DNA of 22,828 bases, from assembly GCA_017542915.1 (NCBI GenBank), contig JAFXWI010000071.1, forward strand, positions 1 through 22,828, in the 5' to 3' direction. Origin of the DNA: Paludibacteraceae bacterium (GTDB taxonomy: Bacteria; Bacteroidota; Bacteroidia; Bacteroidales; Paludibacteraceae). The notes under the pieces were generated by a model that worked only from the letters and a program-made list of their open reading frames with translations, made no database searches and was not told the origin of the DNA. Positions 5,004-22,758 of the stretch are shown here, piece by piece; positions within the stretch are counted from its first letter, which is position 1, and each line of letters begins with the position of its first letter. Both the position numbers and the translations under genes were made by a program.

Positions 5004-6038
5004 TCAGTACAACCTCTCCGCGAAATGGAGCGTAGAATCGGGGGCGTTATTCAGAATATGAATAACGTCCTCAAGCATTTCTTCAGGGTGTACTACCCCA
5101 CGCTCCCAGAAATTATTCGCGCCGGATGGAAGACGTTGTTTGCGCCAATTATAGACGCGTCCGTCTTTATACGCCTTAAACCAAGTATGCTTCTCGTCCA
5201 TCTGAGCCAATTCCGACAGACTGTTTCCTCCTGCTCCAACCCAGACGTCGGCATCGTGGAAATAATGCAGGGTCTCTTCAATTGTCAACGGGATAGATGT
5301 CTCGCGTTCGTCATCATAGAACGGATATTCCGCGCCTGAATCTTTGAAGAGATAAGCCAAGTAGTTCTTACCGGAAGGAACATACCAAGTGCCACGAAAA
5401 TTATTACCACTCATTATTTTCGTGGATTGGAGATTTGAGATCTGAGATTTGAGATTTATATATTGTGTTTCCACCTTTTGAAAGATGGAATCGGCCTCGT
5501 GCAGTTTGCCGGTGAGGGCTCCGAGCACGCGGATCCATTCAGCTCGCGCTAAAGGAGAGTGTTCTTGCCATTCGTTGATATAAATAGTGAACACGCCTAA
5601 TTTCTCCAAACGCGTTGCCTCTAAGTTATCATACTGACCGTAGTTCACCGCCAATAACGCATCCAGACCTGCCTGCAAGGTACGCTCAGCAGAAGGCTTC
5701 ATAGAGTCCCCAAGATCTATCTCATCGCCCTTAACAGGCGTGTATATCAACTCCGGATTGCAAACCGCCACCAGACAGTCCATCGCATCCAGCACATAGA
5801 GAAAACCGACCTGCACGGTACTCATCGTCCCTAAGCGTCGCAAAGGCTCACGGACACACAGACGCTGGTAAGGCTGAAACACCTCTACCACTACTCCGGT
5901 ATCCGTCTGAGTGATCTGACAGCCCTCGGCATACTTATTTCCGGCAGGCACACTACCCTGCTCTGCAGGCTGTTTTCCACAGCCCGCAAAGCAAAGCAGC
6001 ATGAGAGTACAAAGTACGGTGTACGAGATGGTTCTCAT
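5004..6038 (-). CDS. btuF: BtuF-like periplasmic-binding lipoprotein (cobalamin uptake)
   Basis: A 344-residue substrate-binding protein of the helical-backbone metal/cobalamin class. It should carry B12 from the outer-membrane receptor to an ABC importer, which is not in the window. Residues 1-20 are a lipoprotein signal (LCFAGC, Cys20). The N-lobe has RRLGTMSTVQVGFLYVLDAM (about 67-86). The hinge and C-lobe follow, including TWYVPSGKNYLAYLF and DVWVGAGG. The start ATG overlaps the stop of the DUF4465 gene by one base (TAATG), and the gene is last in the riboswitch-led B12 operon. Residues 194-205 (KSQISNLQ region) are encoded by a heptamer array and probably lengthen a surface loop. A siderophore-binding role is the alternative, but context favours B12. 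Confidence 0.8.
   Translation of the reverse strand: MRTISYTVLCTLMLLCFAGCGKQPAEQGSVPAGNKYAEGCQITQTDTGVVVEVFQPYQRLCVREPLRRLGTMSTVQVGFLYVLDAMDCLVAVCNPELIYTPVKGDEIDLGDSMKPSAERTLQAGLDALLAVNYGQYDNLEATRLEKLGVFTIYINEWQEHSPLARAEWIRVLGALTGKLHEADSIFQKVETQYINLKSQISNLQSTKIMSGNNFRGTWYVPSGKNYLAYLFKDSGAEYPFYDDERETSIPLTIEETLHYFHDADVWVGAGGNSLSELAQMDEKHTWFKAYKDGRVYNWRKQRLPSGANNFWERGVVHPEEMLEDVIHILNNAPDSTLHFAERLY
5425..5459. repeat. Heptamer array inside the BtuF gene
   Basis: Five 7-base units on the plus strand: GATTGGA, GATTTGA, GATCTGA, GATTTGA, GATTTAT. Read from the minus strand they encode part of the LKSQISNLQS stretch without breaking the frame. Confidence 0.85.
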
Positions 6039-6889
6039 TAGAGTTCAGAGCCAAGGATATTGAATGCCTTCTCACCACGGAGAATGACTACTTTACCGTC
6101 ACGAATCACCTTAACGGCCTTCACTGCTGCATCGGTATTGTGGATACCTTCGCTCAGATCGAACTCAGCCTTCTCCGGCTCTACATATCCTTCAGGCTTT
6201 GCAGCACCGAAGTTATCCATTGCAAAGTAAGCCGGCGTGTTCATAAAACCATAGCTCTCGTCACTACTACTCAATTGGAATTTGAGTCCCTCAATCTGAT
6301 GACCAAGGTTCTGGAGGTCAACATAGGTCCACTGATTGATATACTTACCATCTTTAGCCAGATAGACATCAATATAACTAAGGAATTCTCCTTCATAACT
6401 ACCGTATATTCTCAGTTTGAACCAATCATCCTTACCGAATTTCTTGGCATAACCGTCTCCATTGCACATAGAGTTTACGGCATAAGCGGTGTTATTAATC
6501 CAAAAGCCTTTGAAAACTTGAGGATTATCGAACATAATAGAATCTGCACCATAATAGTTCTCATTCCAAACCGCGAAGTTATTTCCTTCATATGCACCTC
6601 CACATGCACTATGATAAGCATCCTGAAGACCTTCATATGTATTGGACATCTGGTTGCTAACTGTAAATGCAGAATAATAATCACCATAACCGCTATTACC
6701 TCCATAATAGCTCAGGAAATTGTAAGAACCACTTTTCCAGTTGTTCCAACCAATAACAGGAGCATCTGCACCTTGCCATACAGTGTCAGCCTTGGCAAGC
6801 ATGATGTCCTCAAACGTAGCTACTTGCAGTTGAGCAAACATAGCGGTGCTCATCAAGGCAGCCGCTGCTAAAAAGAAAATCTTTTTCAT
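6038..6889 (-). CDS. DUF4465 secreted protein in the B12 operon
   Basis: A 283-residue exported protein. Residues 1-19 are a Sec signal peptide without a lipobox (cleavage near MFA-QLQ). Residues 20-230 show the DUF4465 pattern: VATFEDI near the N-terminus, SGSYNFLSYYGG, GGAYEGNNFAVW, FKGFWINNTAYAVNSM and AYFAMDNF. The tail (about 235-283) has an acidic linker, then KAVKVIRDGKVVILRGEKAF and NILGSEL, which resembles a type IX secretion sorting tail. DUF4465 proteins often sit in Bacteroidales B12 loci. A cobalamin-binding surface role is plausible, but I cannot tell whether it is related to BtuH. It starts 56 bases after the BtuG stop and overlaps the BtuF start by one base. Confidence 0.8.
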   Translation of the reverse strand: MKKIFFLAAAALMSTAMFAQLQVATFEDIMLAKADTVWQGADAPVIGWNNWKSGSYNFLSYYGGNSGYGDYYSAFTVSNQMSNTYEGLQDAYHSACGGAYEGNNFAVWNENYYGADSIMFDNPQVFKGFWINNTAYAVNSMCNGDGYAKKFGKDDWFKLRIYGSYEGEFLSYIDVYLAKDGKYINQWTYVDLQNLGHQIEGLKFQLSSSDESYGFMNTPAYFAMDNFGAAKPEGYVEPEKAEFDLSEGIHNTDAAVKAVKVIRDGKVVILRGEKAFNILGSEL

Positions 6890-6945
6890 AAAATAAATGT
6901 TTTTAATTGTTAATAAAAAGGGTTAATTATAAAGTGTTATTCGCA

Positions 6946-8823
6946 CTATTTCACATGTAAATCGATCGCGCCGGACACTTCGGTGCTCAGTTCGCCTGTT
7001 TGCGGCAGGACTTCATCTACCGCATTATACACACGGATGAAATCCACAGAAGGCAGGTTCACCGCTTGTCCTGCTGCATCTACCGCCCAAGAGAGATCAA
7101 AAGAGGTGCCCTCTTTATCTGTATTGGGCTTATTATCCACATAGCCGAAATCCAAAATCCGCTGCACGTTCTGACCGCTTATAACCTTGGTCTGCGGTGG
7201 AAGAAGCGCACCGCTAACGGTATATTCATTCTCCTTAATCCACTGCGGATAATACGGATGTTTATGGAAGGGATTTTGCAGGGTGTCGCTCTCCCGAGTA
7301 TAAGTACGAACCACGGCATGTTGTGTCTTAGGATCATCATATAGACTACCTTTCAGCTCAAACCACTTGTCGTCCGGCAGACCATTACCGTTCTCGTCTC
7401 GGCTGACCAACACAATGCCGGGTTCGGAACTGCCATACTCGGTACTTCCACTCATATAGAACGCATTGCCAAGAATCTGCAGGTCATATCCGTCTTTGTT
7501 CTCCACCGGATGATCAAAACCAAACGTAATATATCCACCCCATCCTCCTAATGATACCATTCCACCGGCATTATTGGCAATCGACTGCTCACATTTGCGA
7601 CACATAGAAGCGGCATCATCGCCCTCCTCGTATTTCGGTAACTCATTGACAAACTGCCCCATAGCAGGCAGGTATTCATAGACCTTAGCGATATAAGGCG
7701 AATGACGAGTAGTGTCCCCGCCCGAAGGATCCGGATAGAGATCATAGGCTCCCACCACACGGCAGAGATGTCCCGGTATATCGCCCGTCTTGGCTGTCCA
7801 ATGCTCCCATCCGTCATAGTCATAGCAATGCAGCACACCGGATGAGACATAGTTCTTGGCGTCCGTGATATAGAGCGCATCGGAGCAAGCCAAGATCCCA
7901 TAAGGATGCTCATAGGCGGAGAGATTCATCGGAGAAGAGACAGGGGTATAATCGATCGTCGAGATCCGATGAACCGCCTTGTTCTCCCCGTCCAGCACAT
8001 AGGCGGTGTTGCCGTAAAGGGAGATATTCGAGCAGGAAACGGCAATACGCTTCAGGACTCGGTCATGATCCAATACCACTATCTGCGGTGCTCTGCCGGA
8101 ATAATTACCCTGACAACAAACCCATAGATGTTTCTGCTCGTCAGCACGTACCCTTGTGGGATTCAAGCCCACAGGTATCTGCTCTATCTCCGTAAAGCTA
8201 TTGAGGTCGATGACGGACAGCGTGGAGTCATAGCGGTTCGTGAGATACCCGCCGGAATTGGCGACATAGAGCCGGTCGTCGATAATACAAAGTTCATCAG
8301 GCTGGTGTCCTACTTTCACCTCACGCGTGATTTGCAGCGTAGCAGTATCTACCTCATAGACAGAACCAAACATATCCGGGTCAGCTATACTGCCCACATA
8401 GGCACTCACGTACATCTTACTGCCGTGAAACGCCAAATACCGACAATTCGGGATGTCCACCTGTGCTATATGTCGTGCTTTCGGATCCATCACCTCTACC
8501 TTATGCGAACAGTTGATGACCGCATAGAGCTTGCCTCCATACTGCTGAATATCATTGCCCACATCGCCTAACTCCTTCATCTGCTTTGGATTCTGCGCTC
8601 CATACCAATTGGCGTAATACTCACCCGAATGCAGATTGATATAATCCAAACGCGCTTTGTTAGACCCCATATTTCCCTCACAAAGGATATACAATCCACC
8701 CTCACGCACTTCGTCCGTGACGTGCGTGCCTATCGTCGGATAGATCACATCGTCATGACGACAGGAGAATAAGGAGTAAGGAATAAGGACTAAGGACAAG
8801 AATGCCCTGAATAGTCGAAGCAT
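6946..8823 (-). CDS. btuG: BtuG-like beta-propeller surface lipoprotein fused to a second surface domain
   Basis: Surface partner of BtuB that captures B12. I place the start at the ATG at 8823 (625 residues). The ORF opens at 8892, but that would overlap btuB and delay the signal peptide by 23 residues. From 8823 the protein begins MLRLFRAFLSL and ends its signal in LFSC (Cys21). Residues about 40-350 are YncE-type blades (NCRYLAFHGSKMYVSAY, PDELCIIDDRLYVANSGG, NPTRVRADEQKHLWVCCQG). From about 375 a second domain begins (SPYIAKVYEYLPAMGQFVNE), with GGMVSLGGWGGYITFGFDHP and SRDENGNGLPDDKW, known from Bacteroides cell-surface proteins. BtuG itself is normally only the propeller, so this looks like a fusion. 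The signal-peptide core is encoded by a heptamer array. Confidence 0.85.
   Translation of the reverse strand: MLRLFRAFLSLVLIPYSLFSCRHDDVIYPTIGTHVTDEVREGGLYILCEGNMGSNKARLDYINLHSGEYYANWYGAQNPKQMKELGDVGNDIQQYGGKLYAVINCSHKVEVMDPKARHIAQVDIPNCRYLAFHGSKMYVSAYVGSIADPDMFGSVYEVDTATLQITREVKVGHQPDELCIIDDRLYVANSGGYLTNRYDSTLSVIDLNSFTEIEQIPVGLNPTRVRADEQKHLWVCCQGNYSGRAPQIVVLDHDRVLKRIAVSCSNISLYGNTAYVLDGENKAVHRISTIDYTPVSSPMNLSAYEHPYGILACSDALYITDAKNYVSSGVLHCYDYDGWEHWTAKTGDIPGHLCRVVGAYDLYPDPSGGDTTRHSPYIAKVYEYLPAMGQFVNELPKYEEGDDAASMCRKCEQSIANNAGGMVSLGGWGGYITFGFDHPVENKDGYDLQILGNAFYMSGSTEYGSSEPGIVLVSRDENGNGLPDDKWFELKGSLYDDPKTQHAVVRTYTRESDTLQNPFHKHPYYPQWIKENEYTVSGALLPPQTKVISGQNVQRILDFGYVDNKPNTDKEGTSFDLSWAVDAAGQAVNLPSVDFIRVYNAVDEVLPQTGELSTEVSGAIDLHVK
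8767..8794. repeat. Heptamer array encoding the BtuG signal-peptide core
   Basis: Four units on the plus strand: GAATAAG, GAGTAAG, GAATAAG, GACTAAG, followed by a partial GACAAG. Read from the minus strand from the ATG at 8823, they encode most of SLVLIPYSLF, immediately before the lipobox cysteine. Confidence 0.9.
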
Positions 8824-8828
8824 TCCGG

Positions 8829-8865
8829 TCTTTATTCTTTCAGCGAAGCGGTCTTTACTCTTTAT
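8829..8865. repeat. Interrupted heptamer array between btuB and btuG
   Basis: TCTTTAT and TCTTTCA (8829-8842), then the 9-mer GCGAAGCGG, then TCTTTAC and TCTTTAT (8852-8865). It begins 3 bases beyond the btuB stop (TAG, 8868-8870). It fills the 44-base gap before the preferred btuG start. Confidence 0.8.
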
Positions 8866-8867
8866 TC

Positions 8868-10955
8868 CTAATATCTTATAGATAGCGTGCATCGTATATT
8901 CTGTTTAGGCATCGGATAGTTCTGGATCACTTCATAATCCTGTCCGAGCAAGTTATTGATTTCGAGGTTTGCTTTCAGCCAGATTTGGTCGTTGCGGGAC
9001 AGAGCCTGTCGTTGGTCGATGGGTATCTTCCACTCTCCGTAGATGGAGAGGTCATGCGTGTACCAAGGCTGTACATAGTTATAGACGGTGTTCTCCTGCT
9101 GACCATAACGTTCACCGACATAGATGAACGAATAGTTCAGACCATAATGATCTCCACGTTTACTCGACCATTCCAGTCCGAGCACCGCACTACCGCTATG
9201 CCAAGGGATATAAGGTATCTGATGCCGGTAATAGGTGTCCGCAGGGTTCGTGACATCAATCGCGGTCTGATAGGTATAACCGAGTCTCGAACGGAGCACA
9301 AATCGCAAAGGAAGATAGAGCGAGACATCCGCTTTCGCATCGACACCATTGATCTTCACGGTTCCAAGATTAAGCATCGTCCAACGGAACTGCTGTCCTT
9401 TCGGATACGCGATGATCTTGTCCGTCACGCGGTTGTAGTAATAAGAGAGACTTGCGCTTAAGGCATAGCCAATGTCGTTGGTCGTTGGTCGTTGGTCTTT
9501 GGACAAGCGATACGCTAACTCAACCGAATGTTGGCGGGCTAACTCCGGACGGAGGTTCGCATTGCCGAGATCTGTATAATAGAGGTCATTGAAGGTCGGA
9601 TAGCGATAACTCTGCTTGTAGAACGCATTGAGACTCAGGTCTATCTTCGGATACGGACGGAAAGAGAAAAAGACACCCGGGGTGAATCGACATTTGTCAT
9701 TGGAGATCTGAGATTTGTCATTTTGAACCGCAGTCATGAGCACCGACGCCTGAAGACGCAAATACTCCTTGAAATTAAACGCCGTAGCCGCACTCAGCCA
9801 ATGACTATGACGGTAGAAATGCTCGGATCCGGCTTTCAGCAACAGGTTCTCACGAGAAAGCGTATTGTATTGATAATCATACGCTACCGACACGTCCCAC
9901 CATCGGAACAACTGTATCTTATTGGCAAAAGACAGATAAACTTCTTGCTGCGTATAGGTATTGTCGGAAGGCAGAAGTTTCACGTCATAGTTCTTGTAAT
10001 GTGTATAGTCATTGGCGTATTTAGCCAAGAACCTTGTACTCCATCGGTTAAACCATTCATCCTTCCATTCCGCCTGAACAAAGGTATTTCTATCCCATAA
10101 GCGCTCTCCGTTTCGCCACACATTATTGACAATAGCTCCCGGCACACCGCGCTCCGACCAATAGTTATAGGCATGTACGCGCCAGAAACCAGTTGTGCGG
10201 TAATAATGATGCAAACCTAACTCCGTCCTAACGGCATTCACATCGCCGTTCTGCCGCACAGCTGTCGTGTCATACGCTGTCTCGCCGTTAGGGAGCACAC
10301 GTTTGTAACGGAACGGATACTTGCCGTTCGAATAGACATACTCGGCATCCAAGGTGAGCGAGAGAGCGTCTGTGAGTTTGACATCTACGCCCACATTGGG
10401 GTTCGCCAACGCAAACGAGCCAAAACGCATCTGGGCACGCACATGTACGCGCTCGTTCTCTTTGAAATACGGTTTACGGGTTGTCAGATAGACGTTTCCT
10501 GCGGCTCCAAACTCTCGGGCGGACTGAAAGATGTCGGATTTCTGACCATTGAAGAGCTGTATCTGCTCCATGTTATCGAGCGAGAAACGCCCTAAGTCCA
10601 CTTGTCCGTTCTGCGCGTTGCCTAATTGCACACCATTATAATACACAGCCGTATGCTGGCTCCCCATTGAGCGGATATTAATCGTCTTAATTCCCCCCAC
10701 TCCTCCATAGTCCTTGAGCTGCACGCCTGAGAAATACCGCAACGCATCCGCTACACTCAAGGCATTGAGACGTTGCAACTCCTCGCCCTTGAGGGTCTGC
10801 GGCACAATTATATCTTTGTTCAACGCACGCGCAGTAACCTCCACCTCCTCTATCTGGAAGTGGTTATACAACGAGTCAACCTCTGTCTCGTCCAAAGCGA
10901 AAACAGAGTGCGCACAGAGTGCTAAACAAAGTATGAAAAATATCTTTTTTACCAT
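8868..10955 (-). CDS. btuB: TonB-dependent outer-membrane cobalamin receptor
   Basis: A 695-residue outer-membrane receptor that imports B12 using TonB energy. Residues 1-20 are a signal peptide. Residues 34-42 (IEEVEVTAR) resemble a TonB box region. The plug domain covers about 45-160 (LSVADALRYFSGVQLKDYGG, INIRSMGSQHTAVYYNGVQ). A 22-strand beta-barrel follows, ending in an aromatic residue (LSIRY). The assignment to cobalamin rests on the cobalamin riboswitch directly upstream and the BtuG- and BtuF-like genes downstream. Two heptamer arrays lie in the barrel, encoding residues 411-422 and 485-494. Both fall between likely strands, so probably in loops or turns. The start ATG lies 5 bases after the riboswitch hairpin. 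Confidence 0.92.
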   Translation of the reverse strand: MVKKIFFILCLALCAHSVFALDETEVDSLYNHFQIEEVEVTARALNKDIIVPQTLKGEELQRLNALSVADALRYFSGVQLKDYGGVGGIKTINIRSMGSQHTAVYYNGVQLGNAQNGQVDLGRFSLDNMEQIQLFNGQKSDIFQSAREFGAAGNVYLTTRKPYFKENERVHVRAQMRFGSFALANPNVGVDVKLTDALSLTLDAEYVYSNGKYPFRYKRVLPNGETAYDTTAVRQNGDVNAVRTELGLHHYYRTTGFWRVHAYNYWSERGVPGAIVNNVWRNGERLWDRNTFVQAEWKDEWFNRWSTRFLAKYANDYTHYKNYDVKLLPSDNTYTQQEVYLSFANKIQLFRWWDVSVAYDYQYNTLSRENLLLKAGSEHFYRHSHWLSAATAFNFKEYLRLQASVLMTAVQNDKSQISNDKCRFTPGVFFSFRPYPKIDLSLNAFYKQSYRYPTFNDLYYTDLGNANLRPELARQHSVELAYRLSKDQRPTTNDIGYALSASLSYYYNRVTDKIIAYPKGQQFRWTMLNLGTVKINGVDAKADVSLYLPLRFVLRSRLGYTYQTAIDVTNPADTYYRHQIPYIPWHSGSAVLGLEWSSKRGDHYGLNYSFIYVGERYGQQENTVYNYVQPWYTHDLSIYGEWKIPIDQRQALSRNDQIWLKANLEINNLLGQDYEVIQNYPMPKQNIRCTLSIRY
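9474..9501. repeat. Heptamer array in btuB (barrel loop 2)
   Basis: Four units: GTCGTTG three times, then GTCTTTG. They encode KDQRPTTND (residues 485-494) on the minus strand. This is the least degenerate heptamer array inside a gene here. Confidence 0.88.
9689..9723. repeat. Heptamer array in btuB (barrel loop 1)
   Basis: Five units: GACATTT, GTCATTG, GAGATCT, GAGATTT, GTCATTT. They encode NDKSQISNDKC (residues 411-422) on the minus strand. The peptide resembles that of the array in the deacetylase gene. Confidence 0.88.
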
Positions 10956-12676: not shown

Positions 12677-13963
12677 ATGGACATCCAAACAGCAGCGACA
12701 GAGATAATAAACAAGGTACACGGGTACATGTGCGAGCACCCCGAGAGCGAGTTACACCGACAGGGCAAAATGTTCGGTGTGCTCATGGTGGAGAGATCAG
12801 ATGTCAGAACTCAGTATTCAGACGATTACCTCGCTGCTTTCTCTGCCAAACTGGACGGTAGTTATCACCATGAGGGGTTTGTGCCGCCGGTTTATGAGAT
12901 GACTACTCCACCAGTGGGTACGAGCAAAGAGGAATCCAAACGACTGCAACGTCTGCTGTTCGCGCAATACAACTTCATCAACGGCAAAGGAGAAAGCAAG
13001 AACCTGTTGGACATCTTTGCCGATGAGAAACCTATCCTCTCTCCGGAAGAATGGTTTGATACAGGTGAAAGGTCAAAGGTGAAAGGAGAAAGGACGCCAC
13101 CTTCGGGTGCCGGTGAGTGCTGTGCGCCCAAACTGCTGCAATACGCTCTCACCCACGGACTCAAACCGATCGCTTTGGCAGAATTTTGGGTCGGTGCCCC
13201 TTCCCGAACAGAGCTTCGAAAAGAAGGTTGTTTCTATGCCCCTTGTTCCGGTAAATGTGTGCCTATCCTGCGGCATATGCTACAAGGACTCGAGGTAGAG
13301 GTGAAAGGTGAAAGGTCAAAGGAAGAAGGAGAAAAGTCAAAGGCGAAAGGGGAAAGGATACAGGTGATTTATGAAGACAACTATCTGATGGTGGTTAATA
13401 AACCGGCAGGACTGCTTTCCGTACCGGGTAAAAGCGATGAGCCTTCGGTAGAGTCGTACCTGCAAGCCAAAGCGGTACATAGGCTTGATCAAGATACCAG
13501 CGGACTGTTGGTACTTGCTAAAACGCCGGAGGTGTACAAGACGCTGCAGGCCTATTTCCAACGCCGCGACATCCTCAAGCGGTACGAAGCGGTAGTGAAG
13601 CCTTCAGATATCAGCCATCAGATGTCAGATGAAGGGATGATCTCCCTGCCACTTCTGCCGGATCCGTATGACCGACCAAGGCAGATGGTGAACATAGAGC
13701 ACGGCAAAGTAGCGATTACCCGTTATGTCGTTCGGGAGCAACGGGCGGACGGCACTTGTCTTGTGGATTTCTATCCCCTTACGGGCAGAACGCACCAGTT
13801 ACGTGTTCACGCGGCGCATCCGGATGGTTTGAATGCGCCTATTGTAGGCGACCGGCTCTATGGGTCTCCGGCTGAGCGGTTGATGCTCCATGCGGCTGAG
13901 ATCACCTTCTTGCATCCTATCACACAAGAAGAGATGCATTTCTGCATCCCTTCTCAGTTCTAA
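12677..13963 (+). CDS. RluA-family RNA pseudouridine synthase with N-terminal extension
   Basis: A 428-residue cytoplasmic enzyme converting uridine to pseudouridine in rRNA or tRNA; the exact target cannot be told. The catalytic domain covers about 228-428: YEDNYLMVVNKPAGLLSVPG, the catalytic motif HRLDQDTSGLLVLAK with Asp271, and RTHQLRVHAAHPDG (371-384). Residues 1-205 are an extra N-terminal region seen in large Bacteroidetes RluA proteins (ELHRQGKMFGVLMV, PKLLQYALTHGLKPIALAEFW). Four heptamer arrays interrupt the gene, encoding residues about 40-49, 130-139, 208-228 and 309-318. The second and third encode highly charged linkers (GERSKVKGER, KGERSKEEGEKSKAKGER). The frame stays open and the catalytic motifs are intact, so it is probably functional. 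Confidence 0.92.
   Translation: MDIQTAATEIINKVHGYMCEHPESELHRQGKMFGVLMVERSDVRTQYSDDYLAAFSAKLDGSYHHEGFVPPVYEMTTPPVGTSKEESKRLQRLLFAQYNFINGKGESKNLLDIFADEKPILSPEEWFDTGERSKVKGERTPPSGAGECCAPKLLQYALTHGLKPIALAEFWVGAPSRTELRKEGCFYAPCSGKCVPILRHMLQGLEVEVKGERSKEEGEKSKAKGERIQVIYEDNYLMVVNKPAGLLSVPGKSDEPSVESYLQAKAVHRLDQDTSGLLVLAKTPEVYKTLQAYFQRRDILKRYEAVVKPSDISHQMSDEGMISLPLLPDPYDRPRQMVNIEHGKVAITRYVVREQRADGTCLVDFYPLTGRTHQLRVHAAHPDGLNAPIVGDRLYGSPAERLMLHAAEITFLHPITQEEMHFCIPSQF
12795..12822. repeat. Heptamer array 1 in the RluA gene
   Basis: Four degenerate units: GATCAGA, TGTCAGA, ACTCAGT, ATTCAGA. They encode SDVRTQYSD, between the VLMVE strand and DYLAAFSAKLDG. Confidence 0.75.
13064..13109. repeat. Heptamer array 2 in the RluA gene with adjacent C(UUCG)G hairpin
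   Basis: Units GGTGAAA, GGTCAAA, GGTGAAA, GGAGAAA (13064-13091). They are followed by CACC-TTCG-GGTG (13098-13109), a classic stable tetraloop hairpin. They encode GERSKVKGER and the following PPSG. Confidence 0.85.
13300..13362. repeat. Heptamer array 3 in the RluA gene (nine units, 63 bases)
   Basis: Units GGTGAAA twice, GGTCAAA, GGAAGAA, GGAGAAA, AGTCAAA, GGCGAAA, GGGGAAA, GGATACA. The array is exactly 21 codons long and encodes the charged linker between the N-terminal extension and the catalytic domain. Confidence 0.88.
13602..13629. repeat. Heptamer array 4 in the RluA gene
   Basis: Units CTTCAGA, TATCAGC, CATCAGA, TGTCAGA. They encode most of PSDISHQMSD, between catalytic-domain strands KRYEAVVK and GMISLPL. 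Confidence 0.78.
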
Positions 13964-13973: not shown

Positions 13974-16628
13974 TTAATCCTTCTTCTCGGTATTCTGCGC
14001 TTCTTCATCGTCTTCGTCATGGTGGTAGTAATAGTACGAACGGTACGCTTTATCGTCCTTGACGAACTTGCCGTATAACTTACCGTACAACTTACCATAC
14101 CGTTTGGCATTGCTGTTTCGGTTACCATAACCGTAACCGTAGCCACCATAACCACCATAACCGAGGTGACCGTAACCGTAGCCGCCGTAACCGCCATAAC
14201 CGTAACCGTAACCGGATCCGTAGGAGTGACGACCTTCGGTCGGAATGTCGGAGAGGACGATCTGCACTTTCTCCACATTCTCCACCACTTCACGCATTTG
14301 CTCCAAGGTCTGTTTGCAGAAGGATTTATTGGTCTGCATGCATCGGATCACGAACAGACACATGTCACTTTGCTCAATGATCGCATAGGCATCCGGAACC
14401 AGACCGATAGGCGATGTATCGATGACAATATAGTCGTATTTCTCACGCAGTTCTTTAAGCGTATTTGCCAATTTATCCGAGTGAGTCAACTCTCCCGGGT
14501 TAGGCGGGATCGTACCGGCACGTACGAAATCGAAGCCGAACGGTGTGTCTGTCTCCATCGCTGCACTCAGATCGCAGTCTCCGATGAGGAAGTTCGAAGC
14601 ACCGTCACCGCCCTCCAAACCGAGTTTCGTGTGGATATTCGGTTTACGAAGGTCAAGGTCCATCAACAAGGTCTTCTTACCGGTCATCGCATACAGCGAA
14701 GCCAAGTTGGTAGAAAGGAAGGTCTTACCATCACCGGACTCGGTGGAGGTCACACAGATGACCATTTTCTCCTTACGTTTCAGCACAAACTCGATACGCG
14801 TTCGGATAGCACGCATCATCTCGGCATAACTCGATCGAGGCGAAGCACGAACCAGCGTCGGGTTTTGGTTACGAGCGTGACGCAATGTACCAATGAGGCG
14901 GAAGAGTTTGAGTTTGACTACATCCTTCGGCGAACGGATCTTGTTGTTCAGCAACTCGCTCAGGACGATGAGTACCAGCGGAATGAGGAAGCCTACAATC
15001 AGATAGGTCGTGGTCGTCTTCGATTTCGCTTTGGCGTTCATAATCGCCTGTACGCGGGCTTTATCCATGATCGAGTTATCCGGCGTATTGGATGCTTTCT
15101 GGATCTCGGCTTCGGCACGTTTCTGCAAGAAGAAAGTATAGTAGTTATCATCGATGCGGTAGTTACGCTCGATAGCTACCATCTGCAACTCTTTCTCCGG
15201 CAGTTTCTTGATAGAAGCCTCTACCTCATCGTAACGACGTTTGAGGTCGGCTTTCTCGATCTCAAGGGACGCGCGCATAGAAGTCACTACCTCTTCGATC
15301 GCCGTCTTGACATTCTCAATGTCCTTGGTATATTTAGCGTAGTACACGTTTTTCTCCGTCACTTCGCCTCGTTGGATACGCAGGTCATTGAGTTGCTGTA
15401 CTAATCCGATTAAGACCGGCTCATTCACGCCCATGGTCGTCGGAGCAATGACTGCTCCGCTCTCGATATTGGTATTGATATACTTGATGAGGTAGTCGAA
15501 ATAGGTCTCTTTCAGACGCAACTCCATGGACTGCTGGTCATAACCGGCAACCAAGCCCATCAGCTGACCGGCATAGGAGTTCACATCCACGAACTTGTTC
15601 TCCTGACGGAAATCGGTCATAGCCCCTTCGCTGACCTGCAGCGAGGATTGCAAGGTCACCAACTGCTCGTTGATGAACTTAATCGAGTTCTCGGCTACTT
15701 CGTTTTTCTGCTCCAAGTTTTGCAGCAGGTATATATGCGCCAACTTATCAAGGTACTCGCAGTCACGTTGCGGCGTCTCGCTCACGAGGGAGATAGCCAA
15801 AACGGTAGATCCCTCGGTAACGAACGACAGTTGCAAACGGCTCATGAACTCATCTACCAAGGACTCGTGTGTACGGAAACGGAAGTAGATCTTACCGCTG
15901 CTCACCATCAGCTCTGTCGGCCAAATAGTGATGTCAAACAACGGACAGGAGACCGGTTCGCCGTAACGCGCATCGATATCCATCGGTACATCCTCGTTGG
16001 TACAAGTGATATGCATCGTACCATCCTTGAGGAAATTGACCTGATAGAGATTGTCATAAGCACGCGGATCCAGACGGGTAGATTCCACCAAGATAGGCGT
16101 CTGACGATAGAGCTGACGGGTCTTAAATCGTCCTTGGGTAATGTACTCCACGTTCAAGAACGGCAGCGAGTCCACTACGCGGCTGGTCAGGTCATAGGAC
16201 TGAAGCATGATCATCTGGTTGTTGACGTTCTTGTAACCTGCGTCCACACCAAAACCTTGCATCAATGCCAAACTGGAACCACCATAACCGTTGTTCTCCT
16301 TAATGACGATCGTAGCTTGCGACAGATAAGAAGGCAGCCACCTTCTGTTCTTCAGCATCGCGAGACCCATTGCAATCGCAACACCTATCACGAACAGATA
16401 CCAGTAGTGCAGAAAGGTAAAGAACCACTCTACCGGATTAAAGTTCATCGAACTGTCCTCTTCGTCTTTGTCTTGGAGAGGATCTTGCTGATAGTACTGC
16501 TGATTTCCTCCCGGCTGATAGTACGCGTTTCCATAAGCGCTGCCGCCTTGGTAGTACGCATTGTTGCCTCCGGGCTGATAATAGGCGTTATTGCCGCCCG
16601 GGTTGTAATATTGATTATTGTCACTCAT
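13974..16628 (-). CDS. Wzc-type polysaccharide chain-length regulator / tyrosine autokinase
   Basis: An 884-residue inner-membrane protein that controls polymerisation and export of a surface polysaccharide. The first 50 residues are an unusual Tyr-rich repeat (PGGNNAYYQ-like). TM1 lies near 68-90 and a Wzz domain follows. A coiled-coil periplasmic region covers about 300-510. TM2 is near 540-557. The cytoplasmic kinase has Walker A TSTESGDGKTF (about 627-637), Walker A' LLMDLDLRKP and Walker B YDYIVIDTSP. The C-terminal tail (about 800-884) holds some 20 tyrosines in YG, GGYG and YGKL repeats, then a YRSYYYYHHDEDDEE cluster, the usual autophosphorylation region. It is the last gene of the minus-strand operon and converges on the RluA gene 10 bases away. 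Confidence 0.93.
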   Translation of the reverse strand: MSDNNQYYNPGGNNAYYQPGGNNAYYQGGSAYGNAYYQPGGNQQYYQQDPLQDKDEEDSSMNFNPVEWFFTFLHYWYLFVIGVAIAMGLAMLKNRRWLPSYLSQATIVIKENNGYGGSSLALMQGFGVDAGYKNVNNQMIMLQSYDLTSRVVDSLPFLNVEYITQGRFKTRQLYRQTPILVESTRLDPRAYDNLYQVNFLKDGTMHITCTNEDVPMDIDARYGEPVSCPLFDITIWPTELMVSSGKIYFRFRTHESLVDEFMSRLQLSFVTEGSTVLAISLVSETPQRDCEYLDKLAHIYLLQNLEQKNEVAENSIKFINEQLVTLQSSLQVSEGAMTDFRQENKFVDVNSYAGQLMGLVAGYDQQSMELRLKETYFDYLIKYINTNIESGAVIAPTTMGVNEPVLIGLVQQLNDLRIQRGEVTEKNVYYAKYTKDIENVKTAIEEVVTSMRASLEIEKADLKRRYDEVEASIKKLPEKELQMVAIERNYRIDDNYYTFFLQKRAEAEIQKASNTPDNSIMDKARVQAIMNAKAKSKTTTTYLIVGFLIPLVLIVLSELLNNKIRSPKDVVKLKLFRLIGTLRHARNQNPTLVRASPRSSYAEMMRAIRTRIEFVLKRKEKMVICVTSTESGDGKTFLSTNLASLYAMTGKKTLLMDLDLRKPNIHTKLGLEGGDGASNFLIGDCDLSAAMETDTPFGFDFVRAGTIPPNPGELTHSDKLANTLKELREKYDYIVIDTSPIGLVPDAYAIIEQSDMCLFVIRCMQTNKSFCKQTLEQMREVVENVEKVQIVLSDIPTEGRHSYGSGYGYGYGGYGGYGYGHLGYGGYGGYGYGYGNRNSNAKRYGKLYGKLYGKFVKDDKAYRSYYYYHHDEDDEEAQNTEKKD
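14121..14214. repeat. Tyr-Gly codon repeat in the kinase tail
   Basis: Degenerate tandem copies of CCGTAA, CCATAA and CCGTAACCGCCA-type units (plus strand) encode YGYG and GGYG runs on the minus strand. The period is 6 or 9 bases, in phase with codons. It is therefore a protein-level repeat and differs from the 7-base arrays. Confidence 0.85.
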
Positions 16629-16639
16629 AGGCTTTTAAA

Positions 16640-16667
16640 TATCAAATGTCCAATGTCAAATCTCAAA
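16640..16667. repeat. Heptamer array between the export gene and the kinase gene
   Basis: Units TATCAAA, TGTCCAA, TGTCAAA, TCTCAAA. They fill most of the 42-base gap between the stop at 16671 and the kinase start at 16628. Confidence 0.85.
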
Positions 16668-16670
16668 TCA

Positions 16671-17439: not shown

Positions 17440-18291
17440 TTATTTGTCCTTTCCGTAATGTTTGTTCACATGATTAATACCCGTCTGCACAATGGTGTAG
17501 ATGAATACACCGAAGGAGATGGTAGCTGCAGTCACACCAATAACAGTCGTCACATGGTTGATACCGAAGCTGTAGCCCGGGATCTGACGGATATAGATGA
17601 TGTCGTTCGGCTCGATGTAGTAATACTCGGAGTTGACGAGATCTTCCGAACGGGCATCAAAAGTCTTGATGGTCGTCACGCCGTTGATCTCTCGTACCAG
17701 TTTGATCTCCTTGCGGCTGTTGAACTCGCCTAAGTCTCCTGCCAAAGCCAAGGCCTCAAAGATGGTCATCTTCTCCTTGGTAATCGGATAGCGACCGCTC
17801 TGTGCGCCAACGATAGAGAACGAACGGTTTACCACGTTCACCTCCACGGACACACTGCGATAACCCGGCATCTCTGTGATCAATGTACCTAACTGTTTCT
17901 CCAACTCATGCTTCACGTCACGAGTCGTCAGACCTTGCACATGAACCTTACCGATGGTCGGGAAATCGATGTTTCCCTCCTCGTCCACGAGATAGGTGTA
18001 GAGGTCATACGAACTGTTTTGTCCACCTCCTAAGCCCATCTGCTGACGCATCTGTGACGCATTCGCACCACCTGCATTGTACATCTTCATTACTTCTTCG
18101 TTCAAAGAATAGACATACACGTACAGACGGTCACCTATTCGCAGTACGTAATCCTCAAAACTCAAGGTGTCCGCATAGGAAGGGATGTACTTGTCCGGTT
18201 TCTGCATATAGTTCACTTTACGCGCTGTCACGCAGGACGCCAACGCAAAGCCCACTAAAGCCAGAAATAATATGTTTTTTAATTTATTCAT
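17440..18291 (-). CDS. Polysaccharide export lipoprotein, Wza-type (first copy)
   Basis: A 283-residue protein when started at the ATG at 18291: MNKLKNILFLALVGFALASC, lipoprotein Cys20. The ORF can be read six codons further to a TTG at 18309, but those codons lie in a heptamer array. It has a Poly_export domain (VLRIGDRLYVYVYSLNEE; YLVDEEGNIDFPTIGKVHV), an SLBB-like segment (NRSFSIVGAQSGRYPITKEKMTIFEAL) and a C-terminal hydrophobic segment (VTTVIGVTAATISFGVFIYT). The stretch VMKMYNAGGANASQMRQQMG is a Met/Gln-rich insert absent from the second copy. The order suggests the two paralogues are made together and may form a mixed channel or serve different stages. Confidence 0.9.
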   Translation of the reverse strand: MNKLKNILFLALVGFALASCVTARKVNYMQKPDKYIPSYADTLSFEDYVLRIGDRLYVYVYSLNEEVMKMYNAGGANASQMRQQMGLGGGQNSSYDLYTYLVDEEGNIDFPTIGKVHVQGLTTRDVKHELEKQLGTLITEMPGYRSVSVEVNVVNRSFSIVGAQSGRYPITKEKMTIFEALALAGDLGEFNSRKEIKLVREINGVTTIKTFDARSEDLVNSEYYYIEPNDIIYIRQIPGYSFGINHVTTVIGVTAATISFGVFIYTIVQTGINHVNKHYGKDK

Positions 18292-18325
18292 CAAATTTTC
18301 AAATTTCAAATGTCAAATGTCAAAT
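18291..18325. repeat. Heptamer array at the start of the first export gene
   Basis: Units TCAAATT, TTCAAAT, TTCAAAT, GTCAAAT, GTCAAAT. The array touches the ATG at 18291 and ends 5 bases before the stop codon of the oxidoreductase gene, so it forms nearly the whole leader. Confidence 0.9.
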
Positions 18326-18329
18326 TTGA

Positions 18330-19316
18330 TTATCGTTTCTCATCCCATCCGAAGGGGTGTGGGCTGAGAGGCAACTTAGCCAGCGGATGGTAGTCGCCTA
18401 CCAGACCTATCGGCTCAGCATGACGAATCTGAGCTACCGTCTCGATACACGGACGAGCCTCCGAGATGCGGAAACCATTACCGGCAAGAATCTGTTTGTA
18501 GCTCTCCGTATGCAGCTCGGTGAATCCTGCGCTGAACTCAAACTCCTCGCCATCAATGCTCAAGGTACGATAGGTTCGTTTCTCTCCTTGTACGGCATTG
18601 GCAGGCAGACAGTCTGCATTTATACTAAGGAAATAGCGCACGCGCGCACGCTCGAGCTCCAAGAAACCAGCCACACGGTCAAAACTCATCACATGGACGA
18701 TGTTTTGCTTCACGGGACCGAAGATCCATTGCAACATATCGTAGAAATGTACGCCGATGTTCGTAGCTATACCGCCTGACTTATGCACATCGCCTTTCCA
18801 CGAGCTGTAGTACCATTTGCCGCGAGAGGTGATATAGGTCAGATCCACGTCATAGATCTTATCCTTCGGACCGTTCGCTACTTTCTCCCTCAGCGCACGG
18901 ATCTTATCGTGCAAACGGAGTTGCAGGATAGTGTATGCCTTGTGTCCGGTCTCAGCCTCCATTTCCACGAGGTTATCGATGTTATAAGGATTCAGTACCA
19001 GCGGCTTCTCACAGATCACATCGCATCCGAGTCGCAGACCATAACGGATGAACGCATCGTGGGTGTAGTTCGGCGTACAGATAGAGAGCCAATGAAGGGG
19101 ATTGTCTGTACGCATCTGTTTGGAGCAGAAACGGTCGAACTGCTCGTTCTCGGTAAAGAAAGAGCAATCCGGGAACGAACTGTCCAAACGTCCCACACTG
19201 TCAAACTTATCATACGCCACCAACAGGTTATTACCTGTATCAGCGATGGCTTTAATGTGTCTTGGAGCAATATAACCTGCTGCTCCGATCAACCCAAAAT
19301 TCAATTTCTTATCCAT
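18330..19316 (-). CDS. Gfo/Idh/MocA oxidoreductase, WlbA/WbpB-like nucleotide-sugar 3-dehydrogenase
   Basis: A 328-residue NAD-dependent enzyme. The closest family I recognise is WlbA/WbpB, which oxidises C3 of UDP-N-acetylglucosaminuronic acid on the way to diamino-uronic acids. The Rossmann start is FGLIGAAGYIAPRHIKAI (residues 7-24). The catalytic EKP is at 103-105. Also typical are LQLRLHDKIRALR, TSRGKWYYSSWKGD and GGIATNIGVHFYDMLQWIFG with His190. The usual partners (aminotransferase and acetyltransferase) are not in the window, so the product cannot be fixed. The start overlaps the deacetylase stop by 8 bases. Confidence 0.88.
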   Translation of the reverse strand: MDKKLNFGLIGAAGYIAPRHIKAIADTGNNLLVAYDKFDSVGRLDSSFPDCSFFTENEQFDRFCSKQMRTDNPLHWLSICTPNYTHDAFIRYGLRLGCDVICEKPLVLNPYNIDNLVEMEAETGHKAYTILQLRLHDKIRALREKVANGPKDKIYDVDLTYITSRGKWYYSSWKGDVHKSGGIATNIGVHFYDMLQWIFGPVKQNIVHVMSFDRVAGFLELERARVRYFLSINADCLPANAVQGEKRTYRTLSIDGEEFEFSAGFTELHTESYKQILAGNGFRISEARPCIETVAQIRHAEPIGLVGDYHPLAKLPLSPHPFGWDEKR

Positions 19317-20115
19317 GATTTTGTTTTACTATTATTCGCTTCACTATATTTTTGATGGTTTGTAGCAACCATTCTTTATACCATGCTGACTTGCTGTTCG
19401 TCCACCGCTGTGGATGCGTGGTGATCATCACATGGTTTGGCAAGCGGTTCTTCTCGATTGCTTGGATCAAGTCCTGCGTCGTATGCCAAGTCAAGCCGGC
19501 TGCCGTCCACTGTTCTTGATACCCGGGTATCTTATCGCGCACGCTTACTTTGTAACCATCCCAGCAACGCCCCGTATCCGTCAAGTAGAACACATCGCTA
19601 AAATCGGTATCCATATACGGCTCGCCGATGATACCCAAGGCTTTGTAGTCGTATTTTTTCCAGAGGTCTTTGCTGTCGTATTGACTTGTCGGCGCACCGT
19701 GCATACAGATGGTCTCCACCGCGTAGTACTGACGGAAATACGTCAGCCAAGTCTGAAAATGATCGTACGCTCGGTCTATATCTCCTCCGCAAAGACTCAT
19801 GTCCTCGTAGTGATAGCCTATCTCATGTCCGAGCTGCGCGATAGAACGGATGATCTCCGGTTGATTGCTCTCCGGGATGATCCGGAAGTAATAACTGGCT
19901 TTCGCTCCGAGTGAGTGCTCTATCTGCGCAGTCTTCAAGCTGTTCGGGGCTTTCAAATCCACATCGTGACGGAGGATGACAAATTTGTCATTTGACATTT
20001 GACATTTGTCATTTGACATTTGATGCAGGTAATCTGCATAGGAAATCAATTCGTAGCCTTGTTTTTGCAAGGTCTCTAACAGCTCCCGATATATGTCCAG
20101 CGTAAAATCTTTCAA
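19309..20115 (-). CDS. NodB-like polysaccharide deacetylase family protein with TTG start
   Basis: A 268-residue cytoplasmic protein of the polysaccharide deacetylase fold. Motif 1 is ILRHDVD with the metal Asp/His pattern, and motif 2 is HEIGYHYE. ICMHGAPTS and MITTHPQRW are further conserved points. This type occurs in capsule and LPS loci; the substrate is unknown. The only usable start for the N-terminal DIYRELLETLQKQGYELISY region is TTG at 20115. A TAA lies two codons upstream, and the first ATG (residue 33) lies inside a heptamer array. Residues 31-44 (QMSNDKCQMSNDKF stretch) are a 42-base heptamer insert just before motif 1. The original start may have been lost to the array at 20111-20145. 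Confidence 0.85.
   Translation of the reverse strand: MKDFTLDIYRELLETLQKQGYELISYADYLHQMSNDKCQMSNDKFVILRHDVDLKAPNSLKTAQIEHSLGAKASYYFRIIPESNQPEIIRSIAQLGHEIGYHYEDMSLCGGDIDRAYDHFQTWLTYFRQYYAVETICMHGAPTSQYDSKDLWKKYDYKALGIIGEPYMDTDFSDVFYLTDTGRCWDGYKVSVRDKIPGYQEQWTAAGLTWHTTQDLIQAIEKNRLPNHVMITTHPQRWTNSKSAWYKEWLLQTIKNIVKRIIVKQNHG
19983..20024. repeat. Heptamer array inside the deacetylase gene (six units, 42 bases)
   Basis: Units ATTTGTC, ATTTGAC, ATTTGAC, ATTTGTC, ATTTGAC, ATTTGAT. Because 42 bases are 14 codons, the frame is kept and the peptide itself repeats every 7 residues (MSNDKCQ, MSNDKF). Confidence 0.93.
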
Positions 20116-20145
20116 TTCTTAATTCTTAATTTTTAATTTTTAATT
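20111..20145. repeat. Heptamer array at the fcl-deacetylase junction
   Basis: Units TTCAATT, CTTAATT, CTTAATT, TTTAATT, TTTAATT. The TTG start of the deacetylase gene (20115-20113, minus strand) and an in-frame TAA just upstream both lie in this array. Confidence 0.9.
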
Positions 20146-20152
20146 TCGAAAA

Positions 20153-21097: not shown

Positions 21098-22188
21098 TTA
21101 TCTATTCCCTTCTCTAAGAACTCCGCCAAGTTCACCTTGCGTATCTCCGCAGCGGCATCGTCGGCAGCTACTTTCTTCATATCATGTTTCACCATCAGCT
21201 CCACGAGTTGCTCAAAACTGGTGGTCTGCGGGTTCCAACCCAGTTCACGTTTGGCTTTGGAAGGATCACCAAGGAGGTTGACCACATCGGTCGGACGGTA
21301 GAAATCCGGACTGACAGCCACTACCACATCGCCGGTTTTAACGTTAACTCCCTTCTCCTCTATTCCTTCGCCTTCCCAACGGAGCTCGATACCTGCGTGC
21401 TTGAACGCCAAGGTAGCAAACTCACGCACGCTATGCTGCACACCGGTAGCAATGACGAAATCCTCCGGAGTCTTGTGTTGCAAGATCAGCCACATACACT
21501 CCACGTAGTCCTTGGCGTAACCCCAGTCGCGCAGCGAATCGAGGTTGCCGAGATAGAGACATTTCTGCTTGCCCTGCGCAATACGTGCGGCAGCGAGGGT
21601 GATCTTACGGGTCACGAACGTCTCACCGCGACGCTCGGACTCGTGATTGAAGAGGATTCCCGAGCAACAGAACATATTATACGCCTCGCGGTACTCTTTG
21701 ATGATCCAGAAACCGTACAGCTTAGCCACTGCGTACGGGCTATAGGGGTGAAAAGGAGTCGTCTCTGATTGCGGCACTTCTTCCACCTTGCCGTAGAGCT
21801 CGGAGGTAGAAGCCTGATAGATCTTACATTTCTCCTCTAAATGGTTCGTGCGCACAGCTTCCAACACACGCAGTACGCCCACCGCATCTACATCGGCGGT
21901 GAACTCCGGTGCATCAAACGACACCTGTACATGGCTCTGTGCAGCAAGGTTGTATATCTCGTCCGGCTGCACTTTGCCCACCAACTTAACCAGCGACATC
22001 GAGTCGCTCATATCTGCATAGTGCAAATGGAAATGCGGAGTTCCCTCCAAATGAGCAATACGTTCCCGAAAATCCACCGAACTACGACGGATGATACCGT
22101 GTACCTCGTACCCTTTTCCCAACAGAAACTCCGACAGATAACTTCCGTCCTGTCCCGTTACTCCTGTTATCAATGCTGTCTTTGCCAT
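21094..22188 (-). CDS. gmd: GDP-mannose 4,6-dehydratase
   Basis: A 364-residue NADP-dependent short-chain dehydratase that makes GDP-4-keto-6-deoxy-D-mannose, the first step to GDP-L-fucose. The cofactor motif is [12 protein letters not shown] (residues 7-18). Catalytic residues lie in QASTSELYG (Thr128, Glu130) and YAVAK (Tyr152, Lys156). [20 protein letters not shown] and [19 protein letters not shown] are family hallmarks. It is the first gene of the polysaccharide operon in this window, with a good promoter at 22266-22297 and a leader of about 70 bases. Confidence 0.97.
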
Positions 22189-22265
22189 GATATTTTTCTT
22201 ATATTTTTTCTATATTAATTTAATTCGTTTATCGGCATAAAACGCCATATTATGCAAAATAGCGT

Positions 22266-22297
22266 GCAAAGGTACAACAAAAATTGCACATATGCAA
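22266..22297 (-). promoter_or_regulatory. Promoter of the gmd-fcl polysaccharide operon
   Basis: On the minus strand the -33 TTG is at 22297-22295 and the -7 element TACCTTTGC at 22274-22266, with a 20-base spacer. The -33 element lies inside the left arm of the inverted repeat at 22289-22441. Confidence 0.8.
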
Positions 22298-22441
22298 ATT
22301 TTCGGGTGTTTTTCGTCCAATAAAATGAAATTTTATGGATTAAATGGGCATATGGGGCTTTATGCTTGCATAAAATGACCTATAGGCACATTTAATCCGA
22401 AAGCCGTTAGGCTGGACGAAAAATACCCGCCTTTGCATATG
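22289..22441 (+). other. Large nested inverted repeat (153 bp) with three internal arms
   Basis: CATATGCAAA (22289-22298) pairs with TTTGCATATG (22432-22441). After a 4 x 2 internal loop, 22303-22319 pairs with 22413-22429 over 17 bp with a single G-T. Inside are a 7-bp hairpin ATAAAAT-gaa-ATTTTAT (22320-22336); a 10-bp stem GGATTAAATG/CATTTAATCC (22337-22346 with 22389-22398) that contains TATGGG/CCTATA and TTTATGC/GCATAAA; and a small GCC/GGC hairpin. The G-T pairs suit an RNA read from the plus strand. No protein is encoded. It may be a structured RNA or a miniature mobile element. Confidence 0.75.
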
Positions 22442-22458
22442 TCCGGCAGGACGCGAAC

Positions 22459-22524
22459 GTACATTCGGAGGGAACCCGCCCTAAATTATGCAAATAAGTT
22501 TAGGGAAGGGGCGTGCCGAAGTAC
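22459..22524 (+). ncRNA. Candidate structured RNA hairpin upstream of a terminator
   Basis: GTAC and TTCGG (22459-22468) pair with CCGAA and GTAC (22516-22524), with one bulged A. CCC (22475-22477) pairs with GGG, and CCCTAAA (22479-22485) pairs with TTTAGGG (22499-22505). The arm is long and has an internal loop. Together with the terminator at 22575 this suggests a plus-strand RNA ending near 22609. I could not assign it to 6S, SRP, tmRNA or another family, and saw no good plus-strand promoter. Confidence 0.4.
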
Positions 22525-22574
22525 CACCGCACAGACTCCAACAATCCCTCTTTCTTTCTGTTCATAAAGGAAAC

Positions 22575-22609
22575 AAAAAAAACGCCCGAAAATCTCGGAC
22601 GTTTTTTTT
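22575..22609. terminator. Bidirectional intrinsic terminator
   Basis: Stem AACG/CGTT plus CCGA/TCGG (22581-22603) with one C-A mismatch. It is flanked by eight A's (22575-22582) and eight T's (22602-22609). It can stop plus-strand transcription from the structured region and minus-strand transcription of the partial gene at the right edge. Confidence 0.85.
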
Positions 22610-22612
22610 CAA

Positions 22613-22654
22613 TTCACAATGTACAAATCACAATGTACAATTCACAATTCACAA
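22613..22654. repeat. Heptamer array, left arm of an inverted pair
   Basis: Six units: TTCACAA, TGTACAA, ATCACAA, TGTACAA, TTCACAA, TTCACAA. It begins 3 bases after the terminator. Confidence 0.93.
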
Positions 22655-22730
22655 GGCGTCCTATAGGGTTTTGTACAAACTGATAAGTCCGTACGTATTC
22701 TTTTAGTCCGTACCAAACTCCGTGAGCCCT

Positions 22731-22758
22731 TTGATAATTGTGAATTGTGAATTGTGAA
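22731..22758. repeat. Heptamer array, right arm of an inverted pair
   Basis: Units TTGATAA and three TTGTGAA. TTGTGAA is the reverse complement of TTCACAA, so this array is inverted relative to 22613-22654. The 76-base spacer between them contains AGTCCGTAC twice and no gene. Confidence 0.92.

Follow-up and report, generated by a model that had tools for sequence, protein, structure and literature searches.

The heptanucleotide repeats of cyanobacteria are known as short tandemly repeated repetitive (STRR) sequences. Here, arrays with the same 7-base period are described in a stretch of Paludibacteraceae DNA, positions 1–22,828 of contig JAFXWI010000071.1 (assembly GCA_017542915.1), which is referred to below, at its full length of 22,828 nt, as the window. 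To date, heptanucleotides have been reported by Mrazek et al. (2007) as the most abundant class in most genomes, with polymerase slippage as the proposed cause (PMC4679880, PMC4692102). Individual cases include three tandem heptanucleotides in Calothrix PCC 7601, GGGAATC (GGGANTN) heptamers in Xanthomonas and GGGGA(C/T)T heptamers in Nostoc (PMC4692102), as well as TAACTGA repeats in Beggiatoaceae, Cyanobacteria and five Bacteroidetes, two sets of which are found in Paludibacter propionicigenes (PMC4679880). Constant-size, variable-sequence bacterial tandem repeats of 20–21 and 52 nt have been described by Subirana and Messeguer (PMC8161180). The reason for the preference of bacterial genomes for seven-base repeats has been sought since at least 2007 (PMC4679880), and no settled answer was found in the literature searched. 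The arrays of the window and its relatives fall into unit families with shared variable columns, change length in 7-base steps, are replaced at fixed sites and include a tagged segment that was copied between sites. With a little more confidence than doubt, we propose that homology-guided copying from array to array, together with gain and loss of 7 bases, spreads and renews them at places that tolerate them.

The window shares 94.6–96.4% DNA identity with the rumen metagenome-assembled genome (MAG) RUG454 (handle G022) and 92.7–95.7% with the genome handled here as G001, in which 62% of its sampled words are found. G001, 94% complete and about 94% identical to RUG454, is taken to be the rumen MAG RUG715 on the basis of a single contig that is identical when reversed. 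More distant matches, RUG12032 and Paludibacteraceae bacterium (RUI028), have 70–76% identity. The matches point to an uncultured member of the Bacteroidales from the rumen, probably of the Paludibacteraceae. Genome-wide counts were drawn from relatives of the window's genome, among them 400 kb of G001. Arrays were located by a lag scan with a threshold of 17 matches in 21, which is not the long simple sequence repeat (LSSR) statistic of Mrazek.

The form of these arrays is already known. The heptanucleotide excess of Mrazek et al. is present, with 0, 2, 101, 30 and 7 arrays of periods 5 to 9 in the 400 kb of G001; that 7 so strongly exceeds 6, 8 and 9 answers a comparison that a preliminary description of the window had called for. 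That description also named the cyanobacterial heptamers as a precedent, which holds in that several dispersed heptamer families occur within one genome. The heptamers of Xanthomonas and Nostoc resemble the present arrays in combining conserved and free positions in a 7-base unit and, as reported (PMC4692102), in having mostly four units and varying extensively in length and sequence among near relatives. They are G-rich and quadruplex-capable, whereas the arrays here are mostly A-rich, comprise 40 units in 101 arrays, and lie within genes in 42 of 112 cases (G001 sample plus window). Quadruplex G-tracts are missing: the common units of G001 have no GGG, and AAAGGGG is the consensus of 2/101 arrays. 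The TAACTGA repeats are likewise heptameric, dispersed and sporadic, but they consist of one unit whose single-base variants are rarely repeated (PMC4679880), whereas many families with free columns occur here. The repeats of Subirana and Messeguer also show a single repeat size, many sequences per genome and short conserved words, at 20–21 or 52 nt rather than 7. The units are contiguous, without the spacers of near-constant size that separate clustered regularly interspaced short palindromic repeats (CRISPR). A lexicon of many families with free columns, array replacement at fixed places between genomes of 94% identity, and the copying of a tagged segment were not found in the literature searched, which leaves most subscription journals outside and, in the parts available, yielded no work on Paludibacteraceae heptamer arrays or on fixed-place array replacement.

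Pieces of Nostoc plasmids contain heptamer arrays with alternating columns, e.g., GAC[A/C/T]AAT and TCAGRAK. Five of 25 plasmid units are identical to G001 units (null 1.8, p 0.02), and 15 agree with at most one mismatch (null 13.7, p 0.36). A plasmid search with one array matched 15 records (E up to 1), of which six come from Nostoc, Tolypothrix or Microchaete and the best is a Nostoc plasmid at 9e-7; two other array queries gave no match, and the low-complexity filter may have masked them. In viral contigs, the CGACYAA pattern matches 1 stretch and the AAATNTC pattern 49.

The excess of 7 is strong and, among the samples taken from the order, confined to part of this genus. Period-7 arrays number 16, 12 and 20 per 200 kb in G003, G005 and G008, respectively, with 1 in 120 kb of G009, none in 48 kb of G012, and 2 in 248 kb from eight genomes of other families of the order. 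In the whole genus sample (1.21 Mb including the window), period 7 accounts for 162 arrays, period 8 for 53, period 11 for 46, period 9 for 17 and period 6 for 6. In G012 (L093–L095) and G010 (L096), period 11 is commoner than 7 (AATCACCCACT; ACGGTCAGGTA), in small samples of 48 and 20 kb.

The preliminary description held that the arrays have a period but not a sequence in common, which fails genome-wide. The 101 G001 arrays reduce to 40 consensus units, compared with a mean of 87 and a minimum of 78 in null samples of equal A+T content, and form 173 pairs with identical consensus, compared with 18 (maximum 33) in a composition-matched null. The recurring units are CGACYAW, AAATNTC, AATTAAA/AATTACG, CTHTMAA, AATKNAC, TCAGANN and AAAGGNN; as single heptamers outside arrays, the 12 main units occur at ordinary frequency (percentiles 0.20–0.89). 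Moreover, the same variable columns recur across unrelated arrays of one family, as in CGAC[C/T]AA, AAAT[N]TC and CT[N]T[C/A]AA. Column 5 varies in 14/17 arrays of the CGACCAA type and in 16/17 of the AAATCTC type, and such sharing is significant (p below 0.05) in 7 of 10 G001 families, with a combined p of 0.0002. Consensus units identical to those of G001 make up 11/20 in G008 and 7/12 in G005 (p 0.005 each), and 2/16 in G003 (p 0.36). Species-specific variants occur in G006, where 48/50 matches to ATTTGNN are restricted to TA, TG or TT by hand count. An N-X-N rule for the free columns, to which several families had pointed, was rejected, as distances 1, 2 and 3 occur 26, 24 and 19 times (69 of 182 arrays with exactly two variable columns). 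An origin in tRNA anticodon loops was dropped because CGACCAA does not fit.

The clearest evidence of copying between sites is a tagged spacer. This 12-base sequence, AGCCCTTGCATG, sits inside CGACYAA units, and its 18-base form, GACAGCCCTTGCATGGAC, occurs nine times in G001 and seven times in RUG454 (one mismatch); the longer form is absent from 12 congeners (68–98% completeness) and from reversed controls. Each of the 16 copies comes after the last bases of a CGACYAW unit, C[T/C]A[A/T]C. Two of the copies are orthologous to each other, three stand in tandem, and two in RUG454 lie 910 bp apart in similar surroundings, so that 12 unrelated places are left; array sequence has therefore been copied between sites. 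At the two tagged places where an untagged allele is readable, this untagged allele has CGACYAA units at the corresponding point. The heptamer variants beside the spacer differ among copies, while the spacer itself hardly varies. The genus thus supplies near relatives in which copying, replacement, growth and loss of arrays can be read site by site, with the 12-bp spacer as a natural tag, and a traceable patch copied to many places makes the heptamer puzzle open to direct testing. At L230 (contig C14 of G001), the spacer and two heptamers are amplified to a tandem of three 29-bp units.

Within the window, 15 places had been described as having a 7-base period, and this period is real. At all 15, lag 7 ranks first or second among repeat lags, and at 13 it is the best of lags 5–16, lag 14 being best at 13602 and 22613. 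Fourteen places exceed all 20,000 control stretches drawn from the non-array parts of the window (null maximum 6.5); the place at 9689 is weak (score 6.5, p 0.0027). Tandem Repeats Finder (TRF) reported period 7 for 11 of the 15 and period 14 (2 × 7) at 13599. In the lag scan of the window, 11 arrays have period 7, whereas periods 8, 9 and 6 have 2, 2 and 1, respectively; 30 order-2 Markov shuffles gave no period-7 array. The array reported at 8829 exists (score 7.0) but lies at 8852–8880. The occurrence of arrays in both orientations, in gaps and within genes is borne out, and the places 22613 and 22731 are two arms of one element, oppositely oriented on either side of a core of about 80 bp. 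AAATNTC-type units are found at 5425, 9689, 16637, 18291 and 19983, AAAGGNN-type units at 13063 and 13299, and AATTCAC-type units at 22610 and 22736. The genes of the window include those for a BtuB-like TonB receptor, a periplasmic binding protein, an RluA-family pseudouridine synthase, and Wzc-like and polysaccharide export proteins. The features are as follows:

5425–5457, minus strand: AAATCTC array, 4.7 copies (TRF, lag scan), in frame in the periplasmic-binding-protein gene 5004–6038; other sequence in RUG715, 18 nt longer
8767–8797, plus strand: GANTAAG array, 4.4 copies (TRF), near the start of gene 6946–8892; length and family equal in RUG454 and RUG715
8852–8880, minus strand: weak TCTTTAC/TCTTTAT array, score 7.0, no TRF row
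9474–9502, minus strand: array of the CGACCAA family (TRF), in frame in the TonB-dependent receptor gene 8868–10955; a different heptamer-like sequence of equal length in RUG454
9689–9723, minus strand: degenerate array of the AAATNTC family (p 0.0027), within the receptor gene 8868–10955; same in RUG454 and RUG715
12677–13963, plus strand: RluA-family pseudouridine synthase gene with four array slots (gene annotation)
12797–12821, plus strand: pseudouridine synthase slot 1, TCAGANN units (lag score, homologue peptides)
13063–13094, plus strand: pseudouridine synthase slot 2, AAAGGNN units, peptide GERSKVKGER (TRF, lag score)
13299–13357, plus strand: pseudouridine synthase slot 3, AAAGGNN units (TRF); 21 nt shorter in RUG715
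13602–13631, plus strand: pseudouridine synthase slot 4, TCAGANN units (lag score); AAAGGNN-like units in RUG715, 6 nt shorter
16637–16669, plus strand: AAATNTC array (TRF), filling the gap between a polysaccharide export gene and the Wzc-like kinase gene; 7 nt longer in RUG454
18294–18325, plus strand: AAATNTC array (TRF), at the start of the polysaccharide export gene 17440–18309
19983–20023, minus strand: AAATGTC/AAATGAC array (TRF), in frame in gene 19309–20115; CGACCAA-like units of equal length and register in RUG715
20114–20146, minus strand: AATTAAA/AATTAAG array (TRF), in the gap at the start of gene 19309–20115
22610–22654, plus strand: AATTCAC/AATGTAC array (TRF), left arm of a repeated element
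22655–22735, no strand assigned: element core of about 80 bp between oppositely oriented arrays; like cores in G001 (L045:9275–9352, L045:19895–19971, L054:16971–17047)
22736–22760, minus strand: AATTCAC array (TRF), right arm, inverted relative to the left

A comparison of orthologous loci, also called for by the preliminary description, was possible for 13 of the 15 sites in at least one near relative; some sites are unchanged, some altered in length and some replaced. Relative to RUG454 (10 sites), eight arrays have the same length and family, that at 16637 differs by +7, and that at 9474 is replaced. Relative to RUG715 (12 sites), eight are unchanged, 13299 differs by −21, and 5425, 13602 and 19983 are replaced. 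The replacements at 9474 and 19983 are heptamer-like and keep both length and register. The same turnover was observed between G001 and RUG454 over five 20-kb stretches, where 34 of 45 arrays could be mapped (the 11 others being excluded) and were classed, by manual reading, as 14 unchanged, 10 altered in length within the same family and 10 different. In RUG454, five of the different slots hold heptamer-like units of other families, two hold arrays of period 8 and 16, respectively, and the remaining three lack a clear array.

Merging the overlapping arrays of both genomes gave 41 slots, whose gene context, like that of the 112 arrays, comes from a simple ATG-to-stop caller. Of 16 slots inside genes, 5 changed length, all by multiples of 3, which keeps the frame. 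Of the 25 at gaps or gene edges, 20 changed; the change is a multiple of 7 in 8 of them, where one in seven would give 2.9, and a multiple of 3 in 7. Gain and loss in steps of 7 bases therefore occurs, which supports part of the preliminary description. Apart from the arrays within genes, 57 of the 112 lie outside genes at most 40 bp from a start or stop codon.

The RluA-family pseudouridine synthase is a conserved enzyme that tolerates replaced heptamer-coded peptides at four places. Among 120 homologues listed of 7995 matches, the four slots contain differing peptides, many plainly heptamer-coded, or nothing, between well-conserved flanks. Of the 120 listed, the 119 proteins matched at slot 1 carry 54 distinct peptides there, with lengths of 5, 6, 7, 11, 13 and 14 residues; the number of distinct peptides is 45 for slot 2 (91 matched proteins) and 86 for slot 3 (119). 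In a structure model of low confidence, with a mean predicted local distance difference test (pLDDT) score of 68.3 and a predicted template modelling (pTM) score of 0.46, the slots fall at about residues 39–50, 128–148, 211–228 and 308–318, between the listed helices and strands.

In the reading proposed here, the 15 arrays of the window belong to a genome-wide population of short heptamer arrays that draws on a few dozen recurrent, partially degenerate units. A segment copied from one array would land at another array of its family, or at a few bases that match such an array, presumably through replication template switching or short-tract conversion (ectopic exchange) by host enzymes. Within an array, 7-base steps would be gained or lost through slippage or unequal exchange. 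The net effect would be that families spread, unit variants are shuffled and arrays are renewed at fixed tolerant places, namely gene boundaries and in-frame protein loops, with selection as the probable reason for the fixed places. Several observations weigh against this proposal. The preference for 7, and the lesser one for 8 and 11, is not explained by it, nor is the takeover of an occupied place by an unrelated family: no donor was found for wholesale family change, and 3 of the 10 replaced G001/RUG454 slots are without a clear array in RUG454. Column sharing is absent in three of the ten families (AAAGGTG 0.91, AATGTAC 0.24, TAATGAA 0.40), and unit order is no more shared than in shuffled arrays (86 pairs with stretches of at least 20 observed, 76 shuffled), so that the copying of long untagged stretches leaves no visible trace and unit turnover has to be taken as rapid. 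Furthermore, L044:5889 and L054:7218 look like growth of a pre-existing unit, and L054:13149 holds a new 8-bp array apparently derived from local 7-bp sequence. These three slots are what would be expected from local polymerase slippage in 7-base steps from any heptamer present, followed by drift, the process put forward in the preliminary description and in the polymerase-footprint idea attributed to Mrazek (PMC4679880), which also accommodates the dominance of period 7 in G001 and the gap changes by multiples of 7. Yet growth from local seeds should leave many two-unit duplications of every kind, and only 18 lag-7 runs of 9–13 occur outside arrays in 400 kb of G001, 13 of them made of array units (background 6%). 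Array lengths, typically 28–45 bp, have their mode at 28–33 bp (44/141) with fewer short arrays, rather than falling off from two units. Families and variable columns common to unrelated arrays, together with the tagged spacer at unrelated places, likewise leave local slippage unsupported as the main origin; we consider it unlikely, albeit the least so among the alternatives. The result argues that copying between arrays, beyond local slippage alone, produces the heptamer excess. At L054:13149, the counterpart in RUG454 is a period-8 array, CCTCTCAT, within a period-7 array.

Somewhat lower still stands the chance of a sequence-selective, reverse-transcriptase-independent process that writes heptamers, erasing and rewriting short patches in fixed register at tolerant places, including the conserved gene of an RNA-modifying enzyme, so that closely related strains would differ in loop peptides. 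About as unlikely would be protein-binding sites that need 7-base spacing, with selection keeping the units, tolerating certain columns and letting arrays arise repeatedly where useful; the fixed and free columns of each family and the 57 arrays close to start or stop codons agree with such sites, whereas the 42 arrays within genes, the other families found at the same place in near relatives and the occurrence of both orientations do not. Mobilisation of the arrays as miniature elements by a transposase appears improbable. The core of about 80 bp between inverted AATTCAC arrays does recur, in the window and at three places in G001, but a common core with inverted arrays is not seen for most other arrays, and of up to 202 flanks only 26 have sequence in common with another, compared with 12/202 random control pieces. 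What is shared is mostly one repeated element, promoter words, neighbouring arrays and the CGAC spacer. Y1, the only transposase family searched, had no match in G001, G003, G005 or G006. Profiles for RVT_1, Y1, MutS_I and IMS were run against 15 genomes, which did not include G002, G004, G007 and G011. A reverse transcriptase that repeatedly copies a short RNA template, in the manner of telomerase or a diversity-generating retroelement, would fit a fixed period with degenerate columns, and the array-bearing G003 has one RVT_1 match. Nevertheless, RVT_1 had no match in G001, RUG454, G005, G006, G008, G010 and G012, within the limits of incomplete MAGs, while the array-poor G009 has three and G013 one. 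The lack of RVT_1 in five of six array-rich genomes speaks against reverse transcription, which is very improbable, and neither reverse transcriptase nor Y1 transposase is associated with the arrays. Since RVT_1 is missing from most array genomes and MutS is present in all, exchange by ordinary replication and repair enzymes is favoured as the probable route of copying between arrays. Loss of mismatch repair was rejected, as MutS_I was found in 15/15 genomes, and so was a Y-family polymerase (IMS), found in 12/15 and missing from the array-bearing G006 as well as from G012 and G014. Finally, an artefact of assembly is scarcely credible: arrays do lie at the ends of the G001 contigs C12 and C48, but the same arrays occupy the same places in the window, RUG454 and RUG715, and array-coded peptides occur in many listed protein clusters.

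Both C12 and C48 end in an array equivalent to window 16637–16670; arrays thus seem to break assemblies. The whole element with inverted AATTCAC/AATGTAC arrays is found at window 22610–22760 and, in G001, at L045:9244–9380, L045:19830–20000 and L054:16934–17103. Window 22257–22479 holds a dispersed repeat, of which many partial copies occur in G001 and some in G005; the adjoining GCAAAGGTACAA we take to be Bacteroidales-type promoter words. The word AGCGAAGCGGTC occurs 13 times in the 400 kb of G001 and also at window 8842–8853, and a related word forms a 16-bp array in a RUG454 slot. Arrays of period 16 and 8 are present at window 1–71 and 2807–2881 (CTAACCCTCTCATCCC type; CCCTCTAA, nine copies), and period-8 families resembling them occur in G001 and G003. 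Repeats of period 9, 12, 15 and 30 lie at window 14065–14222, near the C-terminal end of the Wzc-like kinase gene. Window 1019–1434 contains tRNA-Gly(CCC), directly followed by class A RNase P RNA.

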